Part shown: one piece after another, positions 4,050 to 42,620 of the stretch
Position numbering within the stretch: position 1 is the stretch's first letter
Layout: every line of letters starts with the position of its first letter
Source: Candidatus Portnoyibacteriota bacterium
GTDB lineage: Bacteria > Patescibacteriota > Minisyncoccia > Portnoybacterales > GWB1-42-6
Length of the DNA: 46,624 nucleotides
Assembly (NCBI GenBank): GCA_016208745.1
Contig: JACQXN010000005.1
Span: forward strand, 1-46,624
Direction of reading: 5' to 3'
Program-made: the position numbers and the translations under genes
Notes under the pieces: model-generated
Database searches by the model: none
What the model saw: the letters and a program-made list of their open reading frames with translations, nothing else
What the model was told of the DNA's origin: nothing

Positions 4050-4760
4050 TTAAATTTCTCCTTGTTTAACCTTGTCTCTTATAAAAGCGTTAAGTGATGA
4101 AAAATTATTTAATTCCGATTTTAATTTTTCAGAATTACCTACATATTTTTCTAAGAAAATATTTACCCTGTCTTTTAGCTCAAACGGTAAGGGTTTATCA
4201 TCTCCCTCGGGAATATTTTGAGCTAATGTCGCCTCTCCATAAATTGGATAGGCTTTTTGCAATTCCAATACCCTTTCTCCTTCCGATAGACCACGCTCAT
4301 TTAAAGAGATAAGTAGTGCCGTCTGATAAAAAAGATCTACTTGCTCCTGCATTTTTCTTTCAACATCATATAGATTCCACCATTTTTTTATATCGTCATT
4401 CCTAACACCTTCTTGTTTTTTATAATCTAATTTTCTCCTAAATATTTGGGCTGCCTTTTCAAACCGATCTTCTTTGGCTTTTGATTCTCCTAAAATTATA
4501 TCACCAAAATTATGCGGCAAATAATAAGTTCCGTATTTTTTAGATTCTTCAATAGCCCTATCAAGTAATTGACCAGCCGTAACACTAGGACTTGGAATGC
4601 CAGTATTTGTAAAAAATTCTATATAATAATTTAGGAGTGATTGCTCTGTGTCGTTATATTTTGAAAAAAATCCCATATATTTTTTTAAAATAAGATAGGC
4701 TCTCGGGTCGTTTGAACCTGCCCCCTGATGGCACTTACTATAGCTCTTATAATTTCTCAT
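4050..4760 (-). CDS. Hypothetical protein, 236 aa
   Basis: Long ORF overlapping start of / following the transglutaminase-like gene. Confidence 0.6.
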   Translation of the reverse strand: MRNYKSYSKCHQGAGSNDPRAYLILKKYMGFFSKYNDTEQSLLNYYIEFFTNTGIPSPSVTAGQLLDRAIEESKKYGTYYLPHNFGDIILGESKAKEDRFEKAAQIFRRKLDYKKQEGVRNDDIKKWWNLYDVERKMQEQVDLFYQTALLISLNERGLSEGERVLELQKAYPIYGEATLAQNIPEGDDKPLPFELKDRVNIFLEKYVGNSEKLKSELNNFSSLNAFIRDKVKQGEI

Positions 4761-6853: not shown

Positions 6854-7031
6854 GTTCACTATCGCTCAAGTTAAAAGTTAAAAATGAAAAGTTCAAATTT
6901 TTCTTTTTTAATTTTAAGATGTCGTTTTTATATTTTTTTGCTAAAGGCGAATCAGCCTCGGGCTGAAATTTTTACTTTTTAATTCCTCTTGAGCCGTTGG
7001 TCCCGCATCTTGCGGGACGACCCGTCTCTTG

Positions 7032-7301
7032 AGCCGTTGTCCGGAATCGAACCGGAGACCTACTCCTTCATTTTGTACCTCTTTTTATATAATACTTATA
7101 AGAGGATTAGACTGTATATTTGGCGTGTCTCAAATGAGATTTAGCCACCCTTGTCAGTCGTTCGTCCGCCTAAGGCGGAACGGTCTTAACCTAGTATAGG
7201 CCTTTAACCGTTATTCGGGATTCGCAATTAAATTTCTCTAATTGTGGGCATAGCCTCTGCGGCTTACCATGGAGTTGCTCTACCGACTGAGCTACAACGG
7301 C
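7032..7301 (-). tRNA. tRNA-Thr (GGT) interrupted by a group I intron; exons 7266-7301 (36 nt) and 7032-7068 (37 nt)
   Basis: Spliced: GCCGTTGTAGCTCAGTCGGTAGAGCAACTCCATGGT|AAGGAGTAGGTCTCCGGTTCGATTCCGGACAACGGCT gives a perfect 73-nt cloverleaf. Confidence 0.95.
7069..7265 (-). ncRNA. Group I intron (197 nt, no ORF) between tRNA positions 36 and 37
   Basis: P1 CAUGGU/GCUAUG with U.G at 5' splice site; P2 CAATTA/TAATTG; P4 ACGGT/ACCGT; P5 CCTA/TAGG; P6 TCCGCC/GGCGGA; P7 GACTG/CAGTC; P8 TGGC/GCCA; P9 CCTCTT/AAGAGG; terminal omega-G. Confidence 0.93.
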
Positions 7302-40540: not shown

Positions 40541-40704
40541 CGGTTGACAGATGCTGCAAGCGGTCTTAAAATAAACCTAGAGCGACGAAGCAGACTCACC
40601 ACCTGTTGAGCTCTCGTTAGTTGCCAACGAAATTGGCGCAAAGAGTGCCCAGAAATCATGGGAAGCCAAGTGGAACCCCCCGTAGTTGCGGGGCTTGGCA
40701 TCAA
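40541..40704 (+). promoter_or_regulatory. T-box-like tRNA-sensing leader upstream of thrS
   Basis: Stem I base UUGACAG/CUGUUGA; CUGC/GCAG stem; specifier-loop candidate ACUC-ACC-AC; antiterminator-like hairpin GCCAAG-[UGGAACC]-CCCCG-UAGUUG-CGGGG-CUUGGC with exact UGGNACC bulge. Confidence 0.82.
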
Positions 40705-40814
40705 ATGATTTTTGGGTATTTTTATTTAATTTTTAATTTTGTAATTTTTAAAAATATCCTGCAGAGCAGGATTGGATTAAAAATTAGAAATTAGACATTA
40801 GAAATTACGCTGCG

Positions 40815-42620
40815 ATGAAGAATCAAAATTCCAATAGAGAAAACCAGCTAGAAATACTCCGTCACTCCACGGCACACATACTCGCGGCCGCAGTGTTTAA
40901 TATGTTCCCCGAAGCCAAATTTGGCATTGGCCCAACAATTGAAGATGGCTTTTATTATGACTTTGATTTGCCGCGAACTTTGATTCCCGAAGATTTGCCG
41001 ATTTTGGAAGAAAAAATGCGCGCCATTATCAAGCAAAATCTGGCATTTGAAAAAGAAAAAATAGATGTAAAAAAAGCACAGACTCTTTTTAAAAAAGCCA
41101 AACAGTTATATAAAGTTGAATTAATTAAAGAGATTAGCGAACAAGGGATAAGTGAACAAGTAGATAAGGACAAGAGACCCAAAAAACTTGCGACTAGTTC
41201 ACTTGTCACCATCTATAAAACCGGCAATTTTGTTGACCTTTGCCGCGGCCCGCATATTGATTCAACCGGCGAGATAAAACCGGATGCTTTTAAGCTCTTG
41301 AAGATCGCCGGCGCTTATTGGCGCGGCGATGAAAAAAATAAAATGCTCCAGCGAATTTATGGAACTGCCTTTGAAAGCAAAAAAGATTTAGGCGAATATC
41401 TGAAAAAGTTGGAAGAAGCCGAGAAACGAGACCACAGAAAACTTGGCGAATATTTAGACCTTTATAGTTTTCCCGAATTAACCGGCGGCGGCCTACCTGT
41501 CTGGCATCCAAAAGGCGCGCAAATTCGCAAACAAATTGAAGATTTTTGGAAGACAGAGCATGAAAAGCGCGGCTACAGCCTCGTCTATTCTCCGCACATC
41601 GCCAATTTAGAGATCTGGAAAAAATCTGGCCATTGGGATTTTTATCGCGAAAATTTATATTCCCCTATTAAGATTGACAACGAGGAATATATGCTCAAAC
41701 CCATGAACTGCCCTTTTCATATTTTTATTTATCAGCATCAAATCAGAAGCTACAATGATTTGCCCATAAGATACGCCGAGCTTGGAACGGTTTATCGCTA
41801 TGAACGATCGGGCGCGCTTCATGGTTTAACCCGCGTTCGCGGCTTTACTCAAGACGATGCCCATATTTTTTGCCGGCCTGATCAGATAAAAGAGGAAGTG
41901 GTCAATGTTTTAAAACTAGCTGGCCTTATGATGGAAACGTTTGGCTTTGAAAAATATAATGCTTATCTTTCAACGCGGCCGGAAAAAGCTATCGGCTCTG
42001 ATGAAAACTGGAAAAAAGCAACTTCTGCTTTGGAAGCGGCGCTTGGAGAAGCAAATATCAAATATGAAATTGATCCGGGCGAAGGAGTTTTTTATGGTCC
42101 GAAAATTGATATAAAAATAGAAGATGCGCTTGGCCGGCAATGGCAGGGGCCGACCATTCAAGTTGATTTCAATTTCCCGGAAAGATTTGAACTCTATTAT
42201 ATTGACGACAAAGGCAAAAAACAACAACCGGTTATGATCCATCGCACAGTCCTTGGTTCAATGGAGCGCTTTGTGGGCGTTTTAGTGGAAAATTTTGCTG
42301 GCGCCTTTCCTTTGTGGCTTGCGCCAGAACAGGTTTGGGTTTTGCCGATTGGCTCGCGGCATGAAGAATATGCGTTGAAAGTAGCTGAAAAAATAAAAGC
42401 GGAAAATATCCGCGTTATTGTTAAAAGCGAAAACGAAACCATCGGCAAGAAAATCCGCGAAGGCGAAATGCAAAAAATTCCATACTTATTAATCGTTGGC
42501 GATAAAGAAATAGAATCTGGTTCTGTCGCGGTGCGCGAAAGAAATAAAGGAGATTTGGGACCGATGAAAATGGAAGAGTTTTTGGAGAAAATCAAAACAG
42601 GGATAAAAAACAAAAAATAG
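40815..42620 (+). CDS. thrS: Threonyl-tRNA synthetase (no TGS domain)
   Basis: LRHSTAHILAAAVFNMFPEAKFGIGPTIEDGFYYDFD...FVDLCRGPHIDSTG...MLKPMNCPFHIFIYQ...ALHGLTRVRGFTQDDAHIFC. Confidence 0.97.
   Translation: MKNQNSNRENQLEILRHSTAHILAAAVFNMFPEAKFGIGPTIEDGFYYDFDLPRTLIPEDLPILEEKMRAIIKQNLAFEKEKIDVKKAQTLFKKAKQLYKVELIKEISEQGISEQVDKDKRPKKLATSSLVTIYKTGNFVDLCRGPHIDSTGEIKPDAFKLLKIAGAYWRGDEKNKMLQRIYGTAFESKKDLGEYLKKLEEAEKRDHRKLGEYLDLYSFPELTGGGLPVWHPKGAQIRKQIEDFWKTEHEKRGYSLVYSPHIANLEIWKKSGHWDFYRENLYSPIKIDNEEYMLKPMNCPFHIFIYQHQIRSYNDLPIRYAELGTVYRYERSGALHGLTRVRGFTQDDAHIFCRPDQIKEEVVNVLKLAGLMMETFGFEKYNAYLSTRPEKAIGSDENWKKATSALEAALGEANIKYEIDPGEGVFYGPKIDIKIEDALGRQWQGPTIQVDFNFPERFELYYIDDKGKKQQPVMIHRTVLGSMERFVGVLVENFAGAFPLWLAPEQVWVLPIGSRHEEYALKVAEKIKAENIRVIVKSENETIGKKIREGEMQKIPYLLIVGDKEIESGSVAVRERNKGDLGPMKMEEFLEKIKTGIKNKK
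41137..41208. repeat. Candidate in-frame repeat insertion in thrS
   Basis: aagtgaacaagtag...ctagttcacttgtc inverted arms; encodes EQGISEQVDKDKRPKKLATSSLV between KVELIKEIS and TIYKTGNFVDLCRGPH. Confidence 0.65.

Follow-up and report, generated by a model that had tools for sequence, protein, structure and literature searches.

The sparse spread of T-box riboswitches has been used in arguments about the age of this class of regulators, and work by Sherwood from 2015 is said to have described actinobacterial translational ileS T-boxes with a short or ultrashort Stem I. Descriptions of T-boxes come for the most part from Firmicutes, Actinobacteria, Chloroflexi and a small number of other groups (PMC2494555, PMC7583486). 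The placement of the specifier in the apical loop of a short kink-turn Stem I is a described type, represented by the actinobacterial ileS T-boxes (PMC7583486; PMC10651847), which act on translation and in which Stem II with its S-turn is reported to be essential when Stem I is short (PMC7583486). In the open-access literature, with subscription journals and preprints lying outside its scope, our search turned up no publication that deals with T-boxes of CPR bacteria; since the literature covered was open-access, priority for such T-boxes is not proven. To our knowledge, almost nothing is known about gene regulation in Patescibacteria.

Here, we analysed a stretch of 46,624 nt from Candidatus Portnoyibacteriota, a CPR (Patescibacteria) bacterium with a tiny genome (contig JACQXN010000005.1 of assembly GCA_016208745.1, positions 1 to 46,624, forward strand), referred to as the window. 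According to our analysis, the leader of its threonyl-tRNA synthetase gene is very probably a transcription-attenuating T-box riboswitch of reduced architecture, which would sense tRNA-Thr(GGU).

Architecture of the thrS leader

The whole riboswitch element spans about 40579-40727 on the + strand. Its parts are given below together with the promoter, thrS and the tRNA gene concerned; percentages of paired positions and two-sided changes refer to an alignment of 40 leaders.

7031-7301, - strand: tRNA-Thr(GGU) with a 197-nt intron after the anticodon (position 36)
40544-40572, + strand: promoter, inferred from sequence; -35 TTGACA (40544-40549), 17-nt spacer, -10 TAAAAT (40567-40572)
40579-40614, + strand: mini Stem I, a kink-turn hairpin (in the MFE fold; covariation; blind kink-turn search)
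40579-40583 with 40610-40614, + strand: Stem I C-stem AGAGC/GCUCU (97% paired, two-sided changes)
40584-40586, + strand: Stem I 3-nt bulge GAC
40587-40588 and 40608-40609, + strand: Stem I tandem GA/GA
40589-40593 and 40603-40607, + strand: Stem I NC stem AGCAG/CUGUU (86% paired, two-sided changes)
40594-40602, + strand: Stem I 9-nt terminal loop ACUC-ACC-AC
40598-40600, + strand: specifier codon ACC (Thr), then A40601; complementary to the anticodon GGU of the above tRNA-Thr
40615-40639, + strand: Stem IIA/B-like H-type pseudoknot (pairing and covariation)
40615-40618 with 40626-40629, + strand: pseudoknot helix S1, CGUU/AACG
40622-40625 with 40635-40638, + strand: pseudoknot helix S2, UGCC/GGCG
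40640-40645, + strand: purine string AAAGAG, 5' of Stem III (purine-rich in the leaders inspected)
40646-40659 with 40705-40718, + strand: terminator conformer, UGCCCAGAAAUCAU with AUGAUUUUUGGGUA (MFE fold; covariation)
40648-40651 with 40659-40662, + strand: Stem III CCCA/UGGG (91% paired; 4 of 4 pairs two-sided)
40665-40699, + strand: antiterminator hairpin with UGGAACC bulge (covariation)
40665-40670 and 40694-40699, + strand: antiterminator helix A1, GCCAAG/CUUGGC (99.6% paired)
40671-40677, + strand: T-box bulge UGGAACC
40678-40682 and 40689-40693, + strand: antiterminator helix A2, CCCCG/CGGGG (94% paired)
40719-40727, + strand: U-rich tract 3' of the terminator
40815-42620, + strand: thrS, threonine--tRNA ligase, 601 aa (TIGR00418, 744 bits versus a cut-off of 384)

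The promoter matches 11 of 12 consensus positions, and 5' of 40 homologous leaders the best promoter-like pair scores 9.8 of 12 on average, versus 7.9 in shuffles. Transcription probably starts at about 40579, at the base of the kink-turn hairpin. The original prediction had closed the base of Stem I by pairing UUGACAG with CUGUUGA, a lower stem which we ruled out since its 5' arm is the -35 hexamer of the TTGACA-17-TAAAAT promoter; because the start is predicted near 40579, this arm would not be transcribed, and CUGUU pairs instead with AGCAG (40589-40593). Other elements of that prediction were borne out, namely, the hairpin of GCCAAG, UGGAACC, CCCCG, UAGUUG, CGGGG and CUUGGC at 40665-40699, the codon ACC followed by A at 40598-40601, the match of the A of UGGA to U73 in both tRNA-Thr genes of the window, and thrS as the next gene, confirmed by its TIGR00418 score.

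Stem I is about 36 nt long and ends in the specifier loop, so that the distal double T-loop for tRNA elbow stacking is absent, while the kink-turn at its base is recognizable by sequence from the succession of C-stem, 3-nt bulge, GA/GA and NC stem; the first pair of the NC stem is poorly supported in the 40 leaders. The specifier fits the regulated gene and is followed by a purine (ACC-A before thrS). Stem II is absent from the leader, with at most 1 nt between the C-stem and the pseudoknot in the window. Among the outer three pairs of S1, two are 95 to 97% paired and the outermost 82%, and the inner three pairs of S2 are 96% paired with two-sided changes, the weak pairs of the pseudoknot being the innermost of S1 and the outermost of S2. 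An element equivalent to the purine string has been described for T-boxes (PMC7583486). The UGGN(ACC) bulge lies between two covarying helices, with N complementary to the tRNA discriminator; in the antiterminator, 10 of 11 pairs show two-sided changes, and all thrS and glyS leaders whose T-box was read have UGGA. Palindromic insertions occur in two relatives and are apparently tolerated, one (CCCTTCGCTACGCTCAGGG) within the specifier loop of L040 (G004) and one (ATCCGCCC-TGGGCGGAT) within the pseudoknot loop of L039 (G002).

Homologous leaders and exchange of the specifier

A DNA search of related genomes returned clear homologues in G003, G008, G002, G004 and G014, with thrS downstream except at contig ends. 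Directly 5' of thrS lies an AT-rich block around TTAGAAATTAGACATTAGAAATTA (about 40770-40806), of which nearly all of the related genomes searched contain many near-identical copies; this tail of the leader is the source of most weak DNA matches and was set aside in the homologue search. In the alignment of six leaders, two-sided changes are already seen at 18 of the 32 ON-state pairs, a number that none of 500 shuffles reached, with the qualification that one row with an insertion was trimmed by hand and that the later sets of natural sequences weigh more. The covariance model built from these six thrS leaders, R1, has matches in 60 of 388 class genomes (E up to 1) and in 45 of 290 phylum genomes (E up to 0.001), and thrS is downstream at 52 of the 70 class loci examined and at 17 of the 18 phylum loci inspected; we regarded the matches L091-L097, L099 and L102-L104 as false or unresolved. 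When named genomes were scanned with a pattern, the thrS leader was found in Portnoybacteria, Moranbacteria/Moraniibacteriota, Falkowbacteria, Uhrbacteria, Adlerbacteria and Saccharibacteria, where a cultivated strain probably has a homologous leader too (compare L124 and L129). The scan placed T-box matches 5' of glyS in Magasanikbacteria and Peribacteraceae and also picked up T-boxes of the ordinary kind in Firmicutes, Thermus/Meiothermus and Chloroflexi.

Across 40 leaders, 91.2% of the ON-state cells are paired, versus 28 to 49% in slid controls, and two-sided changes occur at all but two of the 32 ON-state pairs (30 of 32), counts which lean toward the ON structure in that the alignment was fitted to it. 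The comparison of homologous leaders proposed with the original prediction came out in favor of its T-box call. The UGGAACC bulge, the ACC codon and all of the helices return in homologous thrS leaders with compensatory changes, so that hairpin and codon are not a chance occurrence. The f48 family and similar thrS leaders keep the T-box hairpin and differ in their 5' part (L067, L069, L070, L072 and L073, and likewise L078, L080, L081, L084 and L090).

R1 also matches glyS leaders, which carry GGC in the hairpin loop. When the downstream genes were named by NCBIfam (ileS, aspS including non-discriminating forms, serS, proS, glyS, trpB or other trp genes, and thrS), the codon in the loop was found to follow the gene for nine amino-acid specificities, according to blind search and inspection: ACC before thrS, GGC before glyS, AUC before ileS, GAC or AAC before aspS, UGG before trp genes, UCC before serS, CCG before proS and UGC before cysS. 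The blind kink-turn search returned 43 loops, 34 of which hold a cognate codon, an agreement equaled in none of 20,000 label shuffles; the number of loops found is a lower bound, since the finder misses imperfect GA/GA or long insertions, and some finds are false (for instance, L064 and L090). The agreement extends to the non-thrS loops (11 of 15, a level that 3 of 20,000 label shuffles reached), and ACC occurs in 22 of the 28 thrS loops and in none of the 15 others. The blind search found no kink-turn in several thrS leaders, notably those of family f48. The base 3' of the specifier is A in the thrS leader of the window, and the purine is not constant in glyS leaders. On one Moraniibacteriota contig, two leaders built on the same scaffold carry different specifiers:

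L160:2199-2349 and 4252-4389: two T-box leaders, that of cysS lying 5' of that of thrS

The loop of the cysS leader, ACUUGCACC, contains UGC (Cys); this CysRS was recognized from its sequence, without a family search. The variable base of UGGN changes as well, being A in thrS and glyS leaders, U in ileS and proS leaders and mostly C in asp, ser and trp leaders. Position 73 of tRNA-Thr, the one tRNA whose discriminator was checked here, is U and complementary to UGGA. The discriminators of these tRNAs are U73, A73 and G73, in line with UGGA, UGGU and UGGC.

Some leaders deviate from this common form. In the trp-linked leaders L207, L209, L216, L218, L222 and L224, Stem I appears to be longer and to carry UGG next to an upper hairpin, in contrast to the mini hairpin seen in leaders of synthetase genes. 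L204 and L211 precede bacterial-type AspRS genes with the Asn specifier AAC, which suggests that these enzymes are non-discriminating and controlled through tRNA-Asn.

The T-box model of Rfam, RF00230, gave no match in the window even at E 10, nor did a scan at the Rfam gathering threshold, and no T-box was found by RF00230 in the window's own genome. Of 191 class genomes scanned with the model, 28 gave matches below the 93-bit cut-off and 0 gave a match above it. However, among the leaders linked through R1, it matches four of thrS (L065, E 4.2e-7; L076, 2e-4; L068, 5e-4; L053, 5.5e-4) and one of glyS (L077, E 3.7e-8). The appeal to RF00230 in the original prediction therefore fails for the window itself and holds for its R1-linked relatives, which match significantly (E 4e-8 to about 5e-4), and through these intermediates homology to T-boxes is supported; of the T-box hallmarks accessible to this analysis, most are present. 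Taken with the homologues, the covariation and the codon swaps, the proposal of a thrS T-box in a CPR genome that would read tRNA-Thr(GGU) via ACC and UGGA is strongly supported.

It had also been suggested that splicing of the intron in tRNA-Thr(GGU) might feed into thrS control. A homologous insertion is recognizable in about 7 of 19 relatives, and an Rfam search of the tRNA region for group I introns matched the tRNAs alone. The leader and the intron can occur separately, G001 and G003 having the thrS leader with an intron-less tRNA-Thr(GGU) and G009 and G017 having the intron with no R1 match, and on this co-occurrence the coupling is not supported and was rejected.

Terminator, switching and rival explanations

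The terminator (OFF) conformer is the MFE fold (-61.4 kcal/mol) and contains the kink-turn Stem I, compared with -41.2 kcal/mol for the ON conformer, both without tRNA and the latter with Stem III enforced and the pseudoknot left out. The terminator consumes the whole 5' arm of Stem III (40648-40651 being common to both) and encloses the intact antiterminator hairpin, which is itself compatible with termination, unlike in the textbook T-box layout. Its outer helix, which was not part of the alignment model, is 79% paired in the 40 leaders, with 12 of 13 pairs two-sided. Because Stem III and the terminator share 40648-40651 and both covary, two exclusive states exist. With the antiterminator staying intact in the terminator, the way in which the tRNA blocks termination is harder to see than for T-boxes of the textbook type, and the switch most likely sets a tRNA-stabilized Stem III against the terminator. 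L035-L040 show the nested layout, whereas L064, L076 and L089, inspected by eye, appear to have the textbook one, with antiterminator strands taken up by the terminator, and for this reason the terminator layout appears to have changed within the leaders of one gene, thrS, of one family.

The conserved helices, the match of codon to gene, the match of UGGN to discriminator and the two mutually exclusive helices are read directly from the sequences, and from these we infer tRNA binding and the direction of switching, along with the start site. In the mechanism that we propose, RNA polymerase would start at the base of the kink-turn hairpin, in whose terminal loop ACC would be available for pairing with the GGU anticodon of tRNA-Thr, while the H-type pseudoknot and the purine string would link Stem I to Stem III and the antiterminator. 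When threonine is scarce, uncharged tRNA-Thr would pair GGU with ACC and its 3' UCCA with UGGA, and in bridging these sites would stabilize Stem III stacked on the antiterminator and keep out the AUGAUUUUUGGG strand; with both elements held together, transcription would proceed into thrS. With charged tRNA-Thr, the 3' contact would fail, and the downstream AUGAUUUUUGGG strand would invade Stem III, so that the 14-bp terminator with its U tract would form.

In E. coli, ThrRS recognizes an anticodon-arm mimic in the leader of its own gene, thrS, and represses it. A protein-bound operator of this kind could be imagined here, the gene being thrS and a hairpin with a 7- to 9-nt loop resembling an anticodon arm, but the loop holds the codon ACC, i.e., the complement of the anticodon, and the loops of other genes hold GGC, AUC, GAC, UGG and UGC; since the conserved UGGN bulge that tracks the discriminator base and the pseudoknot would also be left unaccounted for, we deem this reading very improbable and rejected it. 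Still less probable, and likewise rejected, is attenuation by a leader peptide in which a ribosome would translate ACC ACC as Thr codons. Although ACCACC is present in the window and in several relatives, there is no ATG between the predicted start at 40579 and ACC, the second ACC is not conserved, and the codons belong to a hairpin loop whose distance from the T-box bulge is nearly fixed and whose stem shows compensatory changes.

A somewhat less remote alternative, though still a very improbable one, is that the leader descends from a T-box, has lost tRNA control and now acts as a mere terminator or constitutive leader, as the minimal Stem I, the missing Stem II and the persistence of the antiterminator inside the terminator might indicate. 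Against this, many genera have kept ACC, UGGA, the kink-turn and the two exclusive helices, with compensatory changes, and codon and UGGN track the identity of the gene.

Comparison with known T-box types

We consider it likely that Patescibacteria harbor a phylum-wide class of T-boxes with an apical-loop kink-turn mini Stem I (before thrS, glyS, ileS, aspS, serS, proS, cysS and trp genes), missed by current models, and that its thrS form, with no elbow-binding apex and no Stem II, is the smallest of T-box architectures to date and switches by giving up Stem III rather than the antiterminator in exchange for the terminator. What appears to be new here is an ultrashort apical-loop Stem I in Patescibacteria combined with a transcription terminator, such a stem being known before in translational ileS leaders of Actinobacteria; the thrS form adds the loss of Stem II and a terminator that takes Stem III and encloses the antiterminator. 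T-boxes across Patescibacteria would change the distribution map of these riboswitches and would put natural sensors of amino acids at hand for work on these bacteria. The specifier swaps between leaders amount to natural mutants, and the thrS form makes it testable how a T-box beats a terminator in real time without either of the two known aids to tRNA capture.

Like the actinobacterial ileS T-boxes, the thrS leader has a short Stem I with a kink-turn base and an apical-loop specifier, without the elbow-binding double T-loop, followed by a IIA/B pseudoknot, Stem III and a UGGN discriminator domain. The ileS T-boxes, however, are translational and have Stem II with an S-turn, whereas the thrS form has a terminator with a U tract and no Stem II, and gene, codon and host phylum (Patescibacteria) differ. 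By eye, the ileS, aspS and serS leaders of the class appear to retain Stem II with an AGUAGAA-like strand.

With canonical RF00230 T-boxes, such as those of Bacillus, the leader shares the specifier codon, kink-turn, UGGNACC antiterminator, Stem III and intrinsic terminator, as well as an aminoacyl-tRNA synthetase or amino-acid gene downstream. It differs in having no long Stem I, no side bulge for the specifier and no elbow-binding apex, and in a score far under the Rfam cut-off; moreover, its terminator takes Stem III and leaves the antiterminator enclosed, whereas the canonical terminator consumes the 3' strands of the antiterminator. The glyQS-type T-boxes likewise have no Stem II and a strong G+C-rich specifier (GGC in glyQS; ACC or GGC here), and by analogy with them the strong codons ACC and GGC may explain why thrS and glyS leaders do without Stem II. 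However, glyQS keeps a long elbow-binding Stem I, whereas the thrS form is without both aids to tRNA binding.
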